Below are positions 41,184 through 50,062 of a stretch of DNA of 64,000 bases, piece after piece. Location of the stretch: the NCBI RefSeq assembly GCF_000421845.1, contig NZ_ATXU01000003.1, positions 186,001-250,000 on the forward strand, given 5' to 3'. The notes below the pieces were generated by a model. That model was not told where the DNA came from and did not search any database. It saw only the letters and a program-made list of their open reading frames with translations. The DNA is from Leucobacter chironomi DSM 19883 (GTDB lineage Bacteria; Actinomycetota; Actinomycetes; Actinomycetales; Microbacteriaceae). Within the stretch, counting starts at the first letter, position 1. Each line of letters opens with the position of its first letter. The translations under genes were made by a program, and so were the position numbers.

Positions 41184-43178
41184 CTACGGCCCGCACTCGA
41201 CGAGCGCGTCGACCGGCAGCCAGGTCGACGTCGTGCCCGATCCCCCGCTCCAGAAGCCCGGAGTCTGCACGCGGAGCTCGATCACGCCCGCCTGACCGGT
41301 GTTGTAGTCGTCGACCGATACGGGCGGGAAATCCAGCGAGAACGTCGCCGACCAGGTGTGCGGGGCCCACAGCCCGGCACGCGCGAGAAGACCGTGCCAG
41401 GTGAGCCACGGGTAGCGCAGATCCGACGCGCCATCGAGCAGCGGATCGACGATCGGCGTGGTGACCCCGAGCAGGCGGTGCCGCGCAAAGACCACCCCAT
41501 ACTCGGAGAGCGCACCGTCGAGGCGCACGGTGCCCGGCTGGTCGCCGGGAATCGCCGCGCAGAGCCCGGTCACACTGATCCCGGAGACGACCTTGGGCCC
41601 CGTTCCGCCGCACTGCACGAGCGCAACGCCCAGCCAGGGACCGGCGGAGGCGCCCGCGACAAGACGCGCCTCGAGAGCAGCCGCCCCTCCGACAAGGGCA
41701 TCGAGCCCGGACACCGCACCCGACGACCAGTGCCGGTCGCCCCCGGTCACCGCGGTCGTCGTGCCGCCGCCCAGCTCAGCGGGGAAGCGCAGCTCCACCG
41801 AGCCCGGCACATTCGACCGCCCCGAGATGACGTACTGCCCCGCGTCGACGTCGGGAGTGAAGCACTCGACCCCGGGGAGCAGGCCGGCCGGCTGCGGGCC
41901 GGTCGGATCCGTCGGATCGACCGGCTGCTCGGGATCGACGGGCGCCGGCGCCGGCGAACCCGGAACTCCGTCGCCGGGCTTCGTCTGCGGCGCCGCAACC
42001 GTCGACTCCGTGCGCGGCTCCCGAGCGGGACGCGGATCCGCCGGCACGACCGCCGCCGCCTCATCCGCCTGCTGTCCGCCTGCGTCGGCTGCGGCAGCGA
42101 GGTCTCCGGACCGGTCGGCGGCTTCAGACCCCGACTCCCCCGAAGGCGCGGCCTCGACCGGAGCCGTCGATTCCACTCCGCCGCTCGCCAGGGAGTTCAC
42201 GAGGAGCACACCGCCGACCGCGGCCGCGGCGAGCGCCGCTGTAGCGACCACGGCGATCGAGGCGACCACCACTCCGCCGAGACCGCCCGCGCCCCCCGAC
42301 GATCCGCCCGCGGAGCCCCCGGCACCCGCGCCGCCAGACCCCGCAGCACCGCCACCGCTCACGGCCGCGGCGGCCGCGGCGGCCGAGACGCCCGACCCGG
42401 CCCCGAGCGTCGCCGCGAACGCGGCCGCGGATCCGCCGCCGAGCACCACCACCGAGAGCACGAGGGCGAGCTGACGATTGAGCACCGTGAACTCGGCAGC
42501 CACCGCGGTGCACGCATCGCAGCCGTCGAGATGCGCCCCGACCTCGCGGCTCTGCTTGGCCGGCAGCTTGCCGCGCTGGTAGCTCTGCAGACGACGGCGC
42601 ACGGTGCGGCAGGCGACGTCGGCGAGCTCCATGTCTGCGTGCTCCTCGACCCACGCCGACTGCAGCCCCTCCCTCGCGCGCGCGGCGAGTGCAGAGACGC
42701 CGTTCGCCGAGATGCCGAGCAGCGGCGCCGCCTCCCGCGGCGGCAGGCCCTCGACGACGGTGTACCAGAGCACCGCCCGCCAGCGCTCGGGCAACGACGC
42801 GAAGGCCCGGGCCGCAGACTCGCGATCGAAGGCCGCCTCCTCGCCTGGCGCCTCCCCGGCGAGGTCCGGCGTCGTCTCGAGATCGGCGACGGCGTGCTCC
42901 GGCGATCGGTAGGCGTCCACCGCGAGCGAGGAGATCACCCGGTAGAGGTACGGGCGGAACGCGCCGGTGGGCCCGCGTCCGTCGCGCACGAGCTCGAAGA
43001 TCTTCAGGTACGCCCCGGCGACGAGATCGTCGGCATCGAGCGAGGGCGCGATATTGCGGGCGGCCGCGAGCCCGGGAAGACGATGCCGTCGCCACAGCTC
43101 GGCGAACGCCCCGTCGTCACCGTCACGACTGAGCGCGAGCAGCTCGGAATCCGAGCGCACTCGCCAATGATCGCTCAC
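41184..43178 (-). CDS. ECF sigma factor fused to zinc finger, membrane helices and ectodomain
   Basis: A 664-residue multidomain protein. Residues about 8-90 are sigma region 2 (SELLALSRDGDDGAFAELW; LDADDLVAGAYLKIFELV). About 125-175 is region 4 (LPERWRAVLWYTVVEGLPPR; ISANGVSALAARAREGL). A HxxxCxxC anti-sigma-like zinc motif follows (His216, Cys220, Cys223). Two helices (about 237-256 and 302-327) flank a Gly/Ala/Ser-rich segment. A Pro/Ala-rich linker then leads to an exported beta-rich domain of about 220 residues. GTG at 43178 is chosen as the start; in-frame GTG codons adjoin it. It diverges from a giant surface-protein gene, which it probably controls. Confidence 0.8.
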   Translation of the reverse strand: MSDHWRVRSDSELLALSRDGDDGAFAELWRRHRLPGLAAARNIAPSLDADDLVAGAYLKIFELVRDGRGPTGAFRPYLYRVISSLAVDAYRSPEHAVADLETTPDLAGEAPGEEAAFDRESAARAFASLPERWRAVLWYTVVEGLPPREAAPLLGISANGVSALAARAREGLQSAWVEEHADMELADVACRTVRRRLQSYQRGKLPAKQSREVGAHLDGCDACTAVAAEFTVLNRQLALVLSVVVLGGGSAAAFAATLGAGSGVSAAAAAAAVSGGGAAGSGGAGAGGSAGGSSGGAGGLGGVVVASIAVVATAALAAAAVGGVLLVNSLASGGVESTAPVEAAPSGESGSEAADRSGDLAAAADAGGQQADEAAAVVPADPRPAREPRTESTVAAPQTKPGDGVPGSPAPAPVDPEQPVDPTDPTGPQPAGLLPGVECFTPDVDAGQYVISGRSNVPGSVELRFPAELGGGTTTAVTGGDRHWSSGAVSGLDALVGGAAALEARLVAGASAGPWLGVALVQCGGTGPKVVSGISVTGLCAAIPGDQPGTVRLDGALSEYGVVFARHRLLGVTTPIVDPLLDGASDLRYPWLTWHGLLARAGLWAPHTWSATFSLDFPPVSVDDYNTGQAGVIELRVQTPGFWSGGSGTTSTWLPVDALVECGP

Positions 43179-43336
43179 CACCACAAGCCCCCGCTGGTTG
43201 CGGATCCGCGACGTATTCCCATCGCCGCGCACCCAGATAAGCCCCCGCGCGCCATGTACGGCGCCCGGGTTCCCCCTCATCGATTATCCGCGCAACGCCC
43301 TGGAAATCCACTCCAGACGACAACCGAAAAAAATTC

Positions 43337-43366
43337 TGTCAACCGCGCGTCACGATTCGAGGTCAT
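43337..43366 (+). promoter_or_regulatory. candidate ECF-type promoter in the divergent 306-bp gap
   Basis: TGTCAACC (43337-43344), a 16-bp spacer and GGTCAT (43361-43366) resemble TGTC/GTC-type ECF promoters upstream of the surface-protein gene. This is weak, pattern-only evidence; the rest of the 43178-43484 gap shows nothing I can assign. Confidence 0.25.
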
Positions 43367-43483
43367 CTCCGTCTTCTCTGTGCCCGGCTTCTGCGCTGCT
43401 TCCCCCAGAAGTATTCCCAAGCGCAGGAGTCGGGCTTCGAGCGCAGAGGTGCGCTCGAACCGTACCGAAGGGGGACACAAGGT

Positions 43484-46400
43484 ATGCGAGTCACAGCGCT
43501 CGGATGGACGGATCGGGATCGGCCGAAGGGGCGACGCGCGATGCGCGTGCTCGCGGGGGCGCTCTCGGCGCTGCTGTTCGGCGGCACTCTCGCAGTGGGC
43601 GGGCAGGTGCTGCCGGCGACCGCGGCGGAGGGGGCCTCGATCCTCATCAGCAAGACGGTGAACGGGGAGAAAGAGGTACGCGACCTGCGGCCCGGCGACT
43701 CCGTCACCTACCGTGTCGAGTTCCTCGCGAACGACGAAGACGCCGACGGCCCGGCGATCGTCGTCGACGCGCTGCCCGCCGCATTCGCGGGATGGCGGAT
43801 CAGCGACCTCGGTGCGAGCTTCAACAACCAGCGCACCGGTGTGACCCTCGACCTCCCGGGCATCGCCGCAGGCGACTCCCCCGCCCAGCCCCTGAGCGGC
43901 ACCCTCCCGAGCGACCCCGCGGAGCTGCGGATCACCGTCGGCGTCGCGCTGCCGGTGCAGGCGGGGACCGGCAACACCGCGGGCACCGGCCTGCCGACCG
44001 GCGCCCAGGGCGTGCTCGAATACACGATCACCGTTCCGGAGGGCCTCGCCCCGAACGACCCGGTGCTCCGAACCGACCTCACGAACACCGCGACCATCAC
44101 CGCGAAATCGGGTGCGAAGCCGCTCGAGGCCTCGTCGAGCGCGATCATCGAGGTCGACAACCCCATCGTGATCGACGTCGCACCGGCGAAGAGCTGGAGC
44201 CCGGCCGCGCAGAGCTACGAGCCCGGAGCCGCCTCGACCGTCACCATCGGTGCGACCCAGGCCTCGAACGTTCCCGCCAGTGCGCTCCGACTGCAGGATC
44301 CCGCCGATCCGGCGCTCGCACCCGAGGGGGCGAGCGCGCTGCCCGCAGGCAACCCCTTCAACTTCGTCGACTTCGCCGGCTTCACCGCTCCCGCGGACCC
44401 GACGAGCGCCCGCCCCGACGGTGCCGACAGCACCGCCGTCGAGGTCTACCGCCTCAGCGGCGGAAGCTGGAACTGGGTGGCGTGGACCCCGACGATCCCG
44501 AACTCCGACATCGCGGGCGTGCGCACCTCCTACACCGCCGCCGGAGCGACCATCCTTCCCGGCGCCTCGGCGTCGCAGGCCTTCTCCGTGACGCAGCGCG
44601 CCACGAACCGCAGCACCGGCGCGACCGTGTCGACCGGCTGGACGGCGACGAACACCGTGCTCGCCACGGTCGAGGCCCCCGATCAGCCGCCGGTCTCGAA
44701 GCCGACGCAGGCCGGGTTCGAGGTGGCGCCCGAAGCGATCTCGGTCGACGCCCAGAAGCGCTTCTACCCCCTCCCCGGCGGCTCCGAGACCACCGCGCTC
44801 GCCGACGTCACCGCGGGCGAAGCGGTGGGTGTCGTACTCCGCGCCATCAACCCCGAAGCACCCCGGAGCACCACCCTCGACACGCTGACGATCGCCGAGC
44901 CCGGCACGGGCTCCGATCCGCTGTTCCTGGGCTCCGATCTCGTCTTCGCCGGCTTCGACAACAGCGATCTCGACGCGATCTGGCCGGAGGGCGCAACCTC
45001 CGCCGAGCTCACCTGGCTCCACGACGGCGGCCCGACCACCATCCCGCTGACGAGGGGCGACCCGCTGCCCGCCCCGCCCGCCGGCACGACCATCACCGGC
45101 TTCTCCCTCACCTACGCGGGGAAGATCGCGACGAACACCGCCGCCGAGGTGCGCTACCGCATCCAGACGAACTCCGACGAGGCCTTCGTCGCCCCCGGCG
45201 CGCGCACCCAGCCGCTGCCGAACGTCATCGAGGTCTCCGGCACCAAGACCGGACTCCCCGACGCGACCGAAGAGGCCAGCGCGACGCTCGCGCTCGTCGC
45301 CCCTCGGATCGACGTCACCATCGACAAGCGCGTCGGCCCCGGAACCGTGCTCCCCGGCCAGAACGTCGTCGTGCAGCTCGACACCTCTGCCGCCACCGGC
45401 GGCGGTCGCACCAAGCCCACCACGATCACCGTCGAGGATGCGTGGAGCGGCGTCAGCACCTTCTGGGACGCCTTCGACGCGACGCAGATCCTCCCCCCGA
45501 TCAGCCGGCCGGTGAACACGACCGAGCCCGCGACCCAGGCCACGCTCGAGATCTACACCCGCGACGCAAGCGGCAACTGGGCGACGACCCCGCTCGTCAC
45601 CAACCCCCCGGAGAACGAGGCGTATCCGCTCCCCGCCGGCATCACCGGCGTGCGCTTCGTGTACACCAACAGCAACGGGCTCTCGCAGAAGACCTACGTG
45701 AAGCCCAACCTGTCGTTCACCGCCCGTTCGACGTTGCGGAGCGACGCCTCCAAGCCGACCGCGACCGACTTCCTCACGGCAGAGCGCTACACGAACGTCG
45801 CCTCCGCGACCGGCACCGGTGAACTCGACAGCCGCGTCGTCACCGGAACCGACGACGACACTGAGATCGTCGGCGTGCGCGGCACGCAGGACAACGGGCC
45901 GGCACCCGGCACCGGCATGTGGGCATCCAAAGCCTGGGCCGATGACGTGCTCACCTCGCAGTCGGGGGCCCGCACCTCGACCACGCAGCGCTGGGCCGCC
46001 ACCGAGTCCGGCTACAGCACGGTCGTGCTCCAGGATCCGTCCGCACCCACCGCGAGCGGCGCAGGCACCGTGTTCGAGGCGTTCAACCTCACCCATGTGC
46101 GCCCGATCCGCACGAGCGGATCCGCCGGATCCGGCACCGTCGACCCCCGGCTCGCCTGGGATCTCGTCACCGACGTGCAGCTCTACAACGGCAGCGACTG
46201 GGTGAGCGTGACCCCGATCCCCGGCGGCAGCTGGATGAACGCCACCGGCTTCACCGGCTACACCCTCACGCCCGAGCAGCAGCTCAGCACGCTGGGCGTG
46301 CGCCTCGTGCTCGCCGAGAACACGGCAGCGCGCGAGGCCGCATTCGCGAACGGCGACCTCACCGCGCCGAAGGCCGGCACCGGCGTCTCCGCTTCGGCCG

Positions 46401-49400
46401 ACATCCGCGCCTTCCGTCTCGACTGGCAGCTCCGCGAACGCGCACGCACCGCCGACGGCTCGGTGAAGTGGGTGAAGCAGCACGACACGACCTTCAACTG
46501 CGTCGGCGCCGCCGACGGCTGCGTCGAGAACGTCTTCGCCGCAACCGGGATCCACAGCGACTCGACCTCGGACACGGTCACCGCGGCGGACACGATCCAA
46601 GTGCTCGACGGCACGACGAACGTGGACCTCGTGAAGCAGGTGCAGCCCATCGACTCCGCGACCGGCGCCCCCACCGGCACGCCCGCGGACGACATCGAGA
46701 TGACCGTTCCGAACCCCGGCGAGCTCACCGCGGCCGACTACCCGCGCGCCCGCTACACGCTCACGGCGTCGAACGCCTCGACCGCGCCCACGGGCGCGAG
46801 GGACGCCATGCGGCTCGCGAAGATCCGCATCGCCGACACCCGGCGGCCCGACGCCCCCGTCGCGATCGACCAGAGCCAGTTCGCGGGCCGCGACTACGGC
46901 GCCGAGGTGCGCGGCGCGGGCAATCACTTCGACGTCTTCACCCTCACCGGGGTGAGCTACGGCACGCTGCCCGCCTTCATCGACACCACGGACAGCGAGG
47001 TGGAGGTGTGGCTCTACGACGGCACCGCCGCCGGCACCCGGGAAGTGTTCACGCTCCGGCAGGTGCTCGACGGGGATCCCGCGTTCACGGCCCTGCTGCC
47101 CGACGTGATCGGCATCGCGACCACGTTCTCAGGCACCGACCCCGAGGAGAACGGCAACCGCATCACCGTGGGCAGCGAGCTCGTCATGCACCTCGACGTG
47201 CAGTTGCGCGAGCAGTCGCGACTCACCGGCCTCCCGGTCGAGGGCGGCGATCTCGACTCCGTGGTGAGCGTGCCGAACCTCGCGGTCGCCCGCGGCTCGG
47301 ACGCCGTGATCGCACCCGGAACGCAGCCGAGCGACACCGCCCAGGCCGCCGTCGACCTGCGGAAGGCCGCAGTGCGGGTCGATCTGCAGAAGACAGTCGC
47401 CGTGCAGCACGGCGCGACGAGCGACGACACGATCATCGAGGCCTCGCCCTCCGACCCGGTGCACGTGGCGCTCACCGCGACCCCGAACGGCTCCACCGCA
47501 CCGCTGAACACGCTGCGCATCGAGGACGACACCGCGTCGTTCTGGCAGCGCTTCGAGTTCGTGTCGTTCGGCACGGTCACCTCCCCCCGGGACGCCGACA
47601 CCTCGGCGCTGCAGGTGCGGGTCGACGGCGTCTGGACGGCGTACGACGGCTTCACCGGGGATCCGGCGACGATCACGGGCGTCGCGGTCGACTTCTCGCG
47701 TGCGGCAGGGAACGGGCTGTTCCCGCAGGGCGCGACCTCGTGGAATGCGTCGTGGGGCACCGCCGCACTCGGCTTCACCGTGCGCCTGCGCACGGGCGTC
47801 GCGGTCGACTGGACCGGCGACAGCGAGCAGAACATCGCGATCGCCGTCGCAGACAATCACGAGTTCGGCGACGCAGAAGCCGACGCAGACGCCGAAGTGG
47901 GCTTCGGGCCCGGCACGCACACGCTCAGGGTGAGCAAACGCGCCCCGAACGACACCGGCACCCACCAGGTCGAGCCGCTCGTGCACATGCCCTGGCAGCT
48001 CGTCTTCACGAACACCGGCACGGGCTACCTGCCCATCGTGAACGTCACCGACACTCTCCCGGCCACGCTCGACTGGGACGGCGAACAGCCGACCTTCACG
48101 AGCACGCCCGGCGCGAGCGGGGCGACTGGTCTGAGTGCCACCCCCTCGGATGTCGCGATCACGCGCTCCGACGACGGCAGGTCGCTGGTGTTCACCTGGC
48201 CCGCGGGCGCCCGCATGGCTCCCGGCGAGACGATGACCATCGGGCTCGGGCTCGCGCTCCAGCCGGTCCCCACCGGCACCCAGGCGCAGAACACCGTCAC
48301 CGTCGAGACCGGCGTGCCGCTCGCCGCGTGCCAGCAGCCGAACGACTTCGGGCAGCAGCCGCCCGCCCCGGTCGAGGCGTACCGCTGCTCGAACACGAAC
48401 TTCGTGCAGCCGCGCGCGGGGACCGTCGTCGGATCGGCGAAGACGGTGAACGGCGAGTACGTCGACACCCTCGGCGAGAATCTCGTGCACGGCGCGCTCA
48501 ACGTGCGCACCGGCGAGGAGTGCCTGCCGGCCGCCTACCGGCCCATCGGCTCCGACTACACGCGCAACCCCTGCGCGTCGTACACGGCGGTGGGGGCGAC
48601 CGACACCTGGAAGCTGCAGCACTTCAACACCGGCACGAACCCGCTCGCACGGATGACGATCGTCGACATGATGCCGACGATCGGCGACAAGATGCTCGCG
48701 GGCGGCGCCGAGCGCGGCTCGACCTTCCGGCCCGTGCTCGTCGGCGAGAGCGCCTCGGACATCTTCCGCTTCAGCGGTTTGCCGGCGGGCGCGACACCGG
48801 CCATCGAGGTGACGGTGAACGCCGCCGCCTGCGTGGGCGAGGTGCCGGGCAGCTCGCTGTGGGTGGCGGATCCCACCTGCTCCGACACCGCGACGAACCC
48901 GGCGAACGTGTGGACGCCCATCGATGCCTACACCGGAGACATCGCCGACATCGCGGGCATCCGCGTGAACATCGACATGACCGCGGCGCCGCTCGCACCC
49001 GGCGGTGACGTCACCCTCGAGTTCGAGACGGTGAACCGCGTCGTCGACCCCGCAGAGCAGGGCCTCCGCCCGACGCTCGAGCAGTTCGCAACCCCGCAGT
49101 TCGCCTGGAACCAGAACGGCGTGATCGCATGGGACACCTCGGGGAACCGGGTGAATCTGCCCTCGACCCCGCAGCGCGCGGGCGTCACGGTGAAGACGGC
49201 CCCGCTCGTCATCTCGAAGGAGGTCGCCGGCGACGGTGCGGCGCACGCGCCCGAGGAGTTCCCCGTCGAGCTCTCGTGCACCGTGCCGAGCGGCGTCGCG
49301 GATCCCGCTCGCATCGCGCTCGACCTGGGCGACGCGGCGACAGTGATCGTGCCGAAGAACGGCTCGGCGACCGTGCCGGGACTGCCCATCGGAGCCGACT

Positions 49401-50062
49401 GCACGGCCGCAGAAGCCGGAGAGCTCGGCGCGCACGGCGAGACCGGGCGCTCGATCGAGGCGCAGCCCGGGGTCTCCCCGGCGACGGACGGGCTGAGCGC
49501 CGAGCTGCGCATCCGGGAGCAGGAGGACGGTGAGACGCAGCTGCGACTCAGCAACACCTACACCCTCGGCGGCATCGTCGTGGAGAAGTCGGTGCTCAGC
49601 GCCGACGAGCATCCGGTGGGAGCAGAGCACCGATCGGAGCGGTACGCGTTCGAGCTGGTCTGCGAGGCCCGCGGCCTGAACGAGCCGATCACGAAGCGGT
49701 TCACCCTCAGCGCCGGCGAGCGGCACGCCGAGACCGGGCTGCCCGAGGGCGCGCGCTGCACGCTCACCGAGACCGGAGACGGCAACGCGAAGGCGACCTC
49801 CATCACGATCGCAGGCGAGGAGAGCGCCGGCACGAGCCGTGACGGGATCGTGGTCGCAGCCGGCGGCGCGACGGTGCTCGTCTCGAACGTGTTCGACGGC
49901 GTGCCCCCGGCCCCGCCGGCCCCGCCGGCCCCGGGCGGGCACGATCCGCTCTCGACCACGGGTGGCGAGCTCTGGGGCCTCATCGCCGCCATGATCGCGC
50001 TCATCGCAGCGGGCGGCGGGCTCGTGCTCGCCGATCGACGCCGGAAGCGGATCGACGCCTGA
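43484..50062 (+). CDS. giant sortase-anchored surface protein with DUF11/DUF5979-like repeats
   Basis: A 2192-residue exported protein. A signal peptide ends near LPATAAEG (about residue 48). Many beta-sandwich modules follow, each starting with phrases like SKTVNGE, DKRVGPG or QKTVAVQ and ending in asparagine/threonine-rich strands, as in DUF11-type domains. Two DUF5979-like domains lie at about 1890-2130 (PLVISKEVAG; GGIVVEKSVLS). A Pro/Ala linker, the sorting motif LSTTG, a membrane helix and RRRKRIDA end the protein. A stronger signal-peptide start at ATG 43541 is the alternative. It is likely an adhesin or fibrillar wall protein. Confidence 0.88.
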   Translation: MRVTALGWTDRDRPKGRRAMRVLAGALSALLFGGTLAVGGQVLPATAAEGASILISKTVNGEKEVRDLRPGDSVTYRVEFLANDEDADGPAIVVDALPAAFAGWRISDLGASFNNQRTGVTLDLPGIAAGDSPAQPLSGTLPSDPAELRITVGVALPVQAGTGNTAGTGLPTGAQGVLEYTITVPEGLAPNDPVLRTDLTNTATITAKSGAKPLEASSSAIIEVDNPIVIDVAPAKSWSPAAQSYEPGAASTVTIGATQASNVPASALRLQDPADPALAPEGASALPAGNPFNFVDFAGFTAPADPTSARPDGADSTAVEVYRLSGGSWNWVAWTPTIPNSDIAGVRTSYTAAGATILPGASASQAFSVTQRATNRSTGATVSTGWTATNTVLATVEAPDQPPVSKPTQAGFEVAPEAISVDAQKRFYPLPGGSETTALADVTAGEAVGVVLRAINPEAPRSTTLDTLTIAEPGTGSDPLFLGSDLVFAGFDNSDLDAIWPEGATSAELTWLHDGGPTTIPLTRGDPLPAPPAGTTITGFSLTYAGKIATNTAAEVRYRIQTNSDEAFVAPGARTQPLPNVIEVSGTKTGLPDATEEASATLALVAPRIDVTIDKRVGPGTVLPGQNVVVQLDTSAATGGGRTKPTTITVEDAWSGVSTFWDAFDATQILPPISRPVNTTEPATQATLEIYTRDASGNWATTPLVTNPPENEAYPLPAGITGVRFVYTNSNGLSQKTYVKPNLSFTARSTLRSDASKPTATDFLTAERYTNVASATGTGELDSRVVTGTDDDTEIVGVRGTQDNGPAPGTGMWASKAWADDVLTSQSGARTSTTQRWAATESGYSTVVLQDPSAPTASGAGTVFEAFNLTHVRPIRTSGSAGSGTVDPRLAWDLVTDVQLYNGSDWVSVTPIPGGSWMNATGFTGYTLTPEQQLSTLGVRLVLAENTAAREAAFANGDLTAPKAGTGVSASADIRAFRLDWQLRERARTADGSVKWVKQHDTTFNCVGAADGCVENVFAATGIHSDSTSDTVTAADTIQVLDGTTNVDLVKQVQPIDSATGAPTGTPADDIEMTVPNPGELTAADYPRARYTLTASNASTAPTGARDAMRLAKIRIADTRRPDAPVAIDQSQFAGRDYGAEVRGAGNHFDVFTLTGVSYGTLPAFIDTTDSEVEVWLYDGTAAGTREVFTLRQVLDGDPAFTALLPDVIGIATTFSGTDPEENGNRITVGSELVMHLDVQLREQSRLTGLPVEGGDLDSVVSVPNLAVARGSDAVIAPGTQPSDTAQAAVDLRKAAVRVDLQKTVAVQHGATSDDTIIEASPSDPVHVALTATPNGSTAPLNTLRIEDDTASFWQRFEFVSFGTVTSPRDADTSALQVRVDGVWTAYDGFTGDPATITGVAVDFSRAAGNGLFPQGATSWNASWGTAALGFTVRLRTGVAVDWTGDSEQNIAIAVADNHEFGDAEADADAEVGFGPGTHTLRVSKRAPNDTGTHQVEPLVHMPWQLVFTNTGTGYLPIVNVTDTLPATLDWDGEQPTFTSTPGASGATGLSATPSDVAITRSDDGRSLVFTWPAGARMAPGETMTIGLGLALQPVPTGTQAQNTVTVETGVPLAACQQPNDFGQQPPAPVEAYRCSNTNFVQPRAGTVVGSAKTVNGEYVDTLGENLVHGALNVRTGEECLPAAYRPIGSDYTRNPCASYTAVGATDTWKLQHFNTGTNPLARMTIVDMMPTIGDKMLAGGAERGSTFRPVLVGESASDIFRFSGLPAGATPAIEVTVNAAACVGEVPGSSLWVADPTCSDTATNPANVWTPIDAYTGDIADIAGIRVNIDMTAAPLAPGGDVTLEFETVNRVVDPAEQGLRPTLEQFATPQFAWNQNGVIAWDTSGNRVNLPSTPQRAGVTVKTAPLVISKEVAGDGAAHAPEEFPVELSCTVPSGVADPARIALDLGDAATVIVPKNGSATVPGLPIGADCTAAEAGELGAHGETGRSIEAQPGVSPATDGLSAELRIREQEDGETQLRLSNTYTLGGIVVEKSVLSADEHPVGAEHRSERYAFELVCEARGLNEPITKRFTLSAGERHAETGLPEGARCTLTETGDGNAKATSITIAGEESAGTSRDGIVVAAGGATVLVSNVFDGVPPAPPAPPAPGGHDPLSTTGGELWGLIAAMIALIAAGGGLVLADRRRKRIDA

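Follow-up and report, generated by a model that had tools for sequence, protein, structure and literature searches.

A fused ECF sigma factor and its divergent cell-wall-anchored neighbour in Leucobacter chironomi: a candidate one-polypeptide signalling unit

How would a sigma factor work when it is built into one chain with an anti-sigma domain, a membrane anchor and a domain outside the cell, and which gene would it serve? This question is raised by one open reading frame of Leucobacter chironomi DSM 19883. We analyzed the stretch of 64,000 nucleotides that contains it (contig NZ_ATXU01000003.1, positions 186,001 to 250,000), further called the window. Coordinates refer to the window unless a locus (L number) is given. 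An earlier description made from the letters of the DNA, the sequence-only reading, had proposed for this frame ECF sigma regions 2 and 4, a HxxxCxxC zinc motif, two membrane helices and an extracytoplasmic domain of a kind that it did not recognise.

The fused protein and its membrane topology

The frame and its predicted parts are listed below with the evidence for each.

41184..43178, minus strand: fused ECF sigma, zinc anti-sigma, membrane and ectodomain protein, 664 aa (open reading frame, Pfam, orthologues)
42903..43076, minus strand: Sigma-70 region 2, residues 35-92 (Pfam PF04542 Sigma70_r2, 25.2 bits, cut-off 24)
42669..42818, minus strand: Sigma-70 region 4, residues 121-170 (Pfam PF08281 Sigma70_r4_2, 30.9 bits, cut-off 25.7)
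42510..42611, minus strand: zf-HC2 zinc anti-sigma domain, residues 190-223 (Pfam PF13490, 31.7 bits, cut-off 22.2)
42414..42470, minus strand: hydrophobic segment 1, residues approximately 237-255 (hydropathy; helix 221-245 in the AF2 model)
42216..42272, minus strand: membrane helix, residues approximately 303-321 (hydropathy; low confidence in the AF2 model)
41883..42215, minus strand: acidic Pro-rich linker, residues 322-432 (sequence; low AF2 confidence)
41187..41882, minus strand: ectodomain, residues 433-664, two Ig-like beta domains with Cys 439/523 and 540/662 (alignment, model)

We observed one continuous frame with both sigma regions above the Pfam cut-offs, as the sequence-only reading had it, and NCBIfam TIGR02937 (ECF sigma) scored 55 bits against a cut-off of 42.9. 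The protein of 664 aa begins with GTG at 43178; with the in-frame ATG at 43280 as its start, the length would be 698 aa. The zinc motif was found as well. It is the HLDGCDAC at the end of the zf-HC2 domain (residues 216-223), and its H216, C220 and C223 are invariant in 16 aligned Leucobacter proteins. The Hx3Cx2C motif of zinc anti-sigma domains, as defined in the excerpted text of PMC7406223, lies here across helices 2 and 3 and is succeeded by a further helix, which is the arrangement of class I. In the AF2 model of the full-length protein, which is of low quality beyond the sigma and anti-sigma domains (pTM 0.30), the predicted anti-sigma helices are residues 188-201, 207-219 and 221-245. 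Past residue 223 no Pfam family matched at E up to 1, a range in which the HMMER filters drop most matches above E of approximately 0.1.

A sequencing error that joined two genes is practically excluded, since the same fusion is present in many independent genomes. The fusion is common to a Leucobacter clade of 27 rows, window included (support 100), in a tree of 113 fused proteins selected by our rules (quick method, SH-aLRT values only), and it is also found in other Microbacteriaceae. Thus the sigma factor and the anti-sigma domain are indeed parts of a single protein.

Two hydrophobic segments are present where two membrane helices had been proposed. Two crossings are doubtful, because the sigma part must be cytoplasmic and an even number of crossings would return the C-terminus to the cytoplasm. 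Zinc anti-sigma domains possess a fourth helix, and hydrophobic segment 1 is probably the end of this helix and not a membrane crossing. We read it in this way because the AF2 model shows residues 221-245 as one helix, continuous with the anti-sigma domain, and because in four paralogues (L113_8, L107_9, L112_6 and L115_5) a short stretch containing Lys/Arg separates the first hydrophobic stretch from a single membrane helix. Segment 2 (residues 303-321) would be the sole crossing. In 175 proteins we counted 124 K/R and 153 D/E in the loop, and 143 and 486, respectively, in the 40 residues past the second segment.

Export of the C-terminal part is supported by the ectodomain cysteines (439, 523, 540 and 662 in the window protein), by the acidic Pro-rich linker, by a weakly modelled Ig-like fold and by two relatives that carry a pilin domain and a sorting signal; the extracytoplasmic domain proposed earlier stands as a prediction. 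Its last beta domain is conserved in the Leucobacter clade. Among the 16 aligned proteins C439, W609, E634, S651, W653 and C662 are invariant, and an extra upstream beta domain is present only in the window protein, L145 and L146. An alternative alignment places the first cysteine of the orthologues on residue 540 instead of 439, where it is present in most, not all, rows. Which of the two is matched depends on the alignment, because the window protein has two domains and most orthologues have one.

The domain proved as difficult to recognise as the sequence-only reading had found it. Structure prediction from 17 sequences gave a mostly beta model (pLDDT 69, pTM 0.54), and Foldseek against the PDB returned generic Ig and beta-sandwich matches (best E 2e-4, TM approximately 0.26), the second being the SiiE adhesin. 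We rejected naming a family by fold, as the Foldseek matches are too weak and the mean pLDDT of the model is 69. No Pfam family of carbohydrate-binding modules matched the window ectodomain at E up to 1. Derivation of the ectodomain from the neighbouring surface protein was also rejected: a BLAST search of the partner set with residues 381-664 gave a best E of 0.23, and the window's own partner was absent at E up to 10, which means no sequence likeness. Relatives differ in this part. The genus relative L178 has Big_6 Ig domains, Big_6 is matched below its cut-off by two plasmid members from Arthrobacter, and a ricin-type lectin domain is present in one from a Streptomyces plasmid.

The surface-protein neighbour, its promoter and its leader

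The region next to the fused sigma gene contains the following features, read on the opposite strand.

43484..50062, plus strand: giant surface protein, 2192 aa, with signal peptide, DUF5979 and LSTTG sorting signal (open reading frame, Pfam, NCBIfam)
43348..43375, plus strand: predicted ECF-type promoter of the surface gene, CGTCAC-N16-CGTCTT (conserved block, matrix, spacer test)
43382..43435, plus strand: leader hairpin 1, 16-bp stem with compensatory changes (covariation)
43436..43459, plus strand: leader hairpin 2 (TTCGAGCGC..GCGCTCGAA), predicted (structure prediction)

The giant surface gene is divergent from the fused sigma gene. Its product has a signal peptide, an LxxTG signal, a hydrophobic stretch and a positive tail, the marks of a sortase-anchored protein in a rule of our own; NF058582 scored 25.1 bits, just below its cut-off of 27. 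The genome encodes two sortases and one M50 (site-2) protease. The M50 control was positive in 14/14 genomes, so the presence of M50 is unspecific. In L145, the closest relative, two frames of 1191 and 1122 aa (L145:11262-17847, plus strand) take the place of the one surface gene, owing either to a real lesion or to an assembly fault.

We quantitated the neighbourhoods in a sample of 150 family and 54 genus genomes, which gave 80 and 60 loci and, by a rule on length and hydropathy, 113 fused proteins. Sigma genes missed by the simple gene finder (e.g. L147, L160, L171, L176) stand outside the linkage counts and the tree, and the near copies L157/L161, L167/L168 and L156/L159 were retained in the counts. 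Sortase-type proteins were found in 39/218, 19/207, 8/193 and 4/179 cases at distances of one to four genes, respectively, and in 1/168, 1/144, 2/123, 1/78 and 0/30 cases at distances of five to nine (5/543 in sum). Fused sigmas thus adjoin sortase-anchored proteins far above background. Such a protein lies within three genes in 32/44 members of the genus set, being directly adjacent in 27/44, and in 20/69 of the family set, the window included. The proposal that homologues would always lie beside a large sortase-anchored protein was therefore right as to often and wrong as to always; the latter is rejected by these counts and by the loci past the promoter. On the tree the surface label changes 21 times, against a mean of 37.5 in shuffles (0/500 shuffles as low), and starred branches force at least 12 changes. 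Therefore the pairing was gained or lost on many occasions.

A search of a plasmid collection returned 47 records, from which nine regions were examined, seven of them annotated. Pilin or sortase-dependent surface genes lie beside the fused sigma in 3/7 annotated regions (Arthrobacter alpinus, Streptomyces sp. NBC_00334 and Paenarthrobacter sp. OM7). The four remaining annotated regions, all from Streptomyces plasmids, have no pilin or sortase-dependent surface gene beside the fused sigma. In the two unannotated regions the gene finder flagged no surface gene, and in one of these (L288) it missed the sigma gene itself.

Alternatively, the protein might sense polysaccharide or the state of the envelope, as a classic ECF52 factor would, and govern a broad regulon, with the surface gene as only one target or a passenger. 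For this reading, 49/69 relatives of the family set have no sortase protein within three genes, many relatives adjoin metabolic or transport genes, one plasmid member carries the lectin domain mentioned above, and SCO4117 of the same architecture is described in the excerpted text of PMC5826349 as a pleiotropic regulator. We nevertheless consider such a sensor unlikely, as no carbohydrate-binding family matched the window ectodomain and, as presented below, the genome holds few copies of the promoter motif and one strong match of the leader hairpin, which suggests a narrow regulon.

The intergenic regions of orthologues share a conserved block. A motif matrix, trained on 12 loci picked for showing this block, was run over 2.675 Mb on both strands and gave 28 matches of at least 25 bits: the 12 training loci, 15/21 held-out loci (two of these successes being near copies, L168 of L167 and L159 of L156) and L079. 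The last one, the sole such match outside orthologue loci, itself lies upstream of a fused sigma. The 6/21 held-out loci under 25 bits were L170, L171, L172, L173, L174 and L176, with scores of 20.0 bits for L173, 22.3 for L174 and 15.4 for L176.

The spacer is fixed. The 113 upstream regions of fused sigmas (350 bp at most) contained 34 matches to the pattern CGTCAY-Nk-CGTSTY at k = 16 (11 sense and 23 divergent), and no match at k = 10-15 or 17-22. Among the divergent ones 11/23 are the motif-discovery loci; the other 12 and all 11 sense matches are independent. With a slightly looser pattern the sense motif was present before the fused sigma gene in 15/112 regions, compared with 39/2451 regions upstream of other genes, a comparison set that includes some divergent partners. 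The pattern search in the genus-set regions found no motif copy reading into the sigma gene. In L150 the motif is located 113 nt before the surface gene and approximately 1.7 kb from the sigma; therefore the motif there goes with the surface gene. The strict motif occurs four times in the genome (2.96 Mb), one of these being the window copy, and the backward control has none. Within the window alone there were four matches with up to one mismatch against 4.96 expected, which is not significant. The motif alone is not rare within one window, and the case for the promoter rests on conservation. A copy (CGTCAT-N16-CGTCTT) was also seen in another order, beside a fused sigma of Nonomuraea and reading away from it (L293:4931, minus strand).

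Leader hairpin 1 begins six nucleotides past the -10 hexamer. We aligned 22 of 27 extracted leaders, with L157 and L161 omitted as near copies of L158, and L163, L079 and L174 omitted because no matching hairpin was seen in them. Changes on both sides occurred in 14/16 stem pairs. Paired cells amounted to 96.2%, compared with 83.4% in shuffles (0/500 as high), and sliding of the partner strand lowered pairing to 35-53% (maximum 53.0%). RNA is favoured over a DNA palindrome because G-U pairs are common. The covariance model had one strong match in the genome (63.9 bits, E 2.5e-9). Run on 56 sources, of which only the window had been used in building, it found L157, L161, L168, L171 and L176; there was no match at E below 0.01 in L163, L170, L172, L173 and L174. 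No Rfam family fits positions 43150-43600, the best being mraW with 20.1 bits against a gathering score of 50. Second stems are predicted in the window and in several orthologues. Inspection by eye suggested a possible pairing, within 43395-43475, between the C-rich loop of the hairpin (TTCCCCC) and AAGGGGGA, the G-rich ribosome-binding site ahead of 43484. The leader hairpin may serve the stability of a long mRNA or the control of translation. Neither the conserved divergent promoter nor the leader hairpin was part of the sequence-only reading.

Together, linkage, promoter and leader strongly suggest, at the level of sequence, that the fused sigma controls the neighbouring surface gene. It could be asked whether another sigma factor reads the conserved promoter while the fused protein controls something else, given at least two further extended ECFs in the genome. 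We find this very improbable: the motif with its fixed spacing stands next to fused-sigma genes across the family, partly in an autoregulatory position, and once near the fused sigma of Nonomuraea. We infer that the fused sigma, and not another, reads the motif.

Exchange of partners and a sigma with a pilin end

We compared the genes that come next after promoter and hairpin in 33 loci, with the place set from the CGTCAC block in L170 and L172 and from the hairpin match in L171. A surface protein with a sorting signal was next in 18/33, window included. In four further loci (L145, L155, L148 and L168) the surface gene is broken into pieces, interrupted, or runs off the available sequence. L174 has a 304-aa LANTG protein after the promoter, L173 a 1414-aa secreted protein with no sorting signal, L149 a beta-helix protein, and the gene in L153 is unclear. 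A BrkB-like gene is next in 2/33 loci (L156 and L159). A pyrimidine nucleoside phosphorylase is next in 5/33, by Pfam in L154, L162, L165 and L169 and by a like sequence in L160. These phosphorylase loci have the same promoter and hairpin, and the gene there may be a captured target or the arrangement a relic of a lost surface gene.

The partners in L145, L146, L148, L150, L155, L157, L158, L161 and L164 match that of the window (56-82% identity). No match to the surface protein of the window was found at E 1e-3 in L149, L151, L152, L163, L166, L167, L168, L170, L172 and L175; L147, L171, L173, L174 and L176 were left out of this comparison. As the promoter is followed by surface proteins of several kinds, or by other genes, the regulatory module stays and the partner changes or is lost.

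In the genome of L. chironomi (2.96 Mb, 27 contigs) there are five Sigma70_r2 matches, three of which are seen to be C-terminally extended: the window protein (664 aa), one on contig 11 (398 aa) and one on contig 2 (429 aa). The first base of the contig 11 paralogue (L113:9540-10736, plus strand) is the last base of a gene for a surface protein (LSVTG). In two other Leucobacter genomes the matches to the fused sigma numbered 22 (G198) and 17 (G160) at E up to 0.001, not all of them confirmed as fused, a large expansion.

One group of relatives carries a surface-protein domain in the sigma chain itself.

L112:8691-10448 and L115:8705-10462, minus strand: sigma chain with a SpaA domain and an LSMTG sorting signal at its C-terminal end (Pfam, sequence)

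These two loci come from two species of one genus (g51). Sigma regions, Hx3Cx2C, one membrane helix, SpaA and LSMTG are all in a single frame; SpaA scored 27.1 and 26.1 bits against a cut-off of 23.1, and sigma regions 2 and 4 are under the Pfam cut-offs in this pair (19.5 and 23.2 bits in L112). A pilin gene follows directly downstream, and over 147 residues the sigma chain shares 56% identity with this pilin (E 4e-51). The tree groups both sigmas with the contig 11 paralogue, which is 45% identical to the L112 sigma over residues 16-354 and has no SpaA end. The whole architecture was found in only these two of 398 family genomes (E up to 1e-36). Judged from its sorting signal, the pilin-ended sigma may itself be a sortase substrate.

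This suggests a tentative idea, that the ectodomain is a checkpoint of display: the sigma would carry a part that copies or imitates the surface protein under its control, and the state of surface assembly, be it export, sortase linkage or pilus growth, would decide on the release of the sigma. We regard it as possible and rather doubtful. In the window it draws solely on linkage, the ectodomain having no sequence likeness to the partner.

The proposed signalling unit and known systems

We consider it probable that the window encodes a one-polypeptide ECF signalling unit which switches on the divergent surface gene through a CGTCAY-N16-CGTSTY promoter. At rest, sigma regions 2 and 4 would be clamped by the anti-sigma domain, while the anchor would keep the whole chain membrane-bound. 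Some event at the ectodomain would then lead to a first cut outside and then to a cut by the site-2 protease of the genome, by which the sigma piece would be freed. This piece would bring RNA polymerase to the promoter in the shared intergenic region, and the divergent gene of the cell-wall-anchored protein would be transcribed into an mRNA beginning with the strong conserved hairpin. The signal is likely to be the state of the cell surface or the display of the surface protein, because the sigma stays coupled to a surface gene while partners are exchanged.

The sequence-only reading had left two options, that a fused sigma acts from the membrane or that it is released by proteolysis, and we agree that these are the options. 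A sigma that stays tethered could recruit RNA polymerase at the membrane and couple transcription to export, and in the window sigma and target do lie side by side. We hold this to be quite unlikely, as the conserved anti-sigma motif implies an inhibition that has to be lifted, a site-2 protease is present in the genome, and both IutY (PMC8999054) and the truncation of SCO4117 (PMC5826349), in the excerpted text of these papers, point to processing. Release by proteolysis therefore remains our preferred reading.

The fused architecture itself is already known, and the relatives of the window protein are, as had been suggested, actinobacterial ECFs with C-terminal extensions. The excerpted text of PMC8999054 describes ECF48, ECF52 and ECF53 with fused zinc and membrane extensions that are expected to work by proteolysis; ECF48 and ECF53, compared by description only, share with the window protein a C-terminal zinc domain and one to two membrane helices. 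ECF52 is described as exclusive to Actinobacteria, and its studied member is SCO4117 of Streptomyces coelicolor (PMC5826349, excerpted text). In both SCO4117 and the window protein one chain holds an ECF sigma domain, pfam13490, a transmembrane region, a Pro-rich extension and an outside domain. The window protein differs in its Ig-like C-terminal domain, in which no carbohydrate-binding module was matched, and in its divergent sortase-anchored neighbour; we do not file it under ECF52 because no carbohydrate-binding feature was found in it. The motif CGTCAY-N16-CGTSTY also differs from the putative CSGYN-17-SRHA of SCO4117, and according to the same excerpt the ECF52 promoter is unsettled (PMC5826349).

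Two other systems are comparable in part. IutY of Pseudomonas putida (ECF243) likewise has sigma and membrane anti-sigma in a single chain, and unlike the window protein it serves Gram-negative siderophore signalling. To our knowledge, IutY has no zinc domain and no sortase partner. In the excerpted text of PMC8999054 it is the only one-chain tethered ECF sigma with experimentally worked-out activation, in which proteolysis by Prc and RseP releases the sigma.

SigI/RsgI systems of Clostridium thermocellum resemble the window in that a membrane protein with an outside sensing domain controls a sigma. They have separate sigma and anti-sigma genes and carbohydrate-binding ectodomains. They regulate surface machinery (PMC10766802, excerpted text), and RsgI undergoes autoproteolysis (cited within PMC10766802).

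In the literature searched, mostly abstracts, we did not find the coupling to surface genes, the N16 motif, the leader hairpin or the pilin-ended sigma; an earlier mention may have escaped us. With its fixed-spacer promoter motif, its putative target gene and its structured leader, the locus makes signal, cleavage and target directly testable. If the proposed unit is true, Gram-positive bacteria would gain a self-contained tuning of surface proteins and pili, in which the regulator is kept while the surface protein is swapped.
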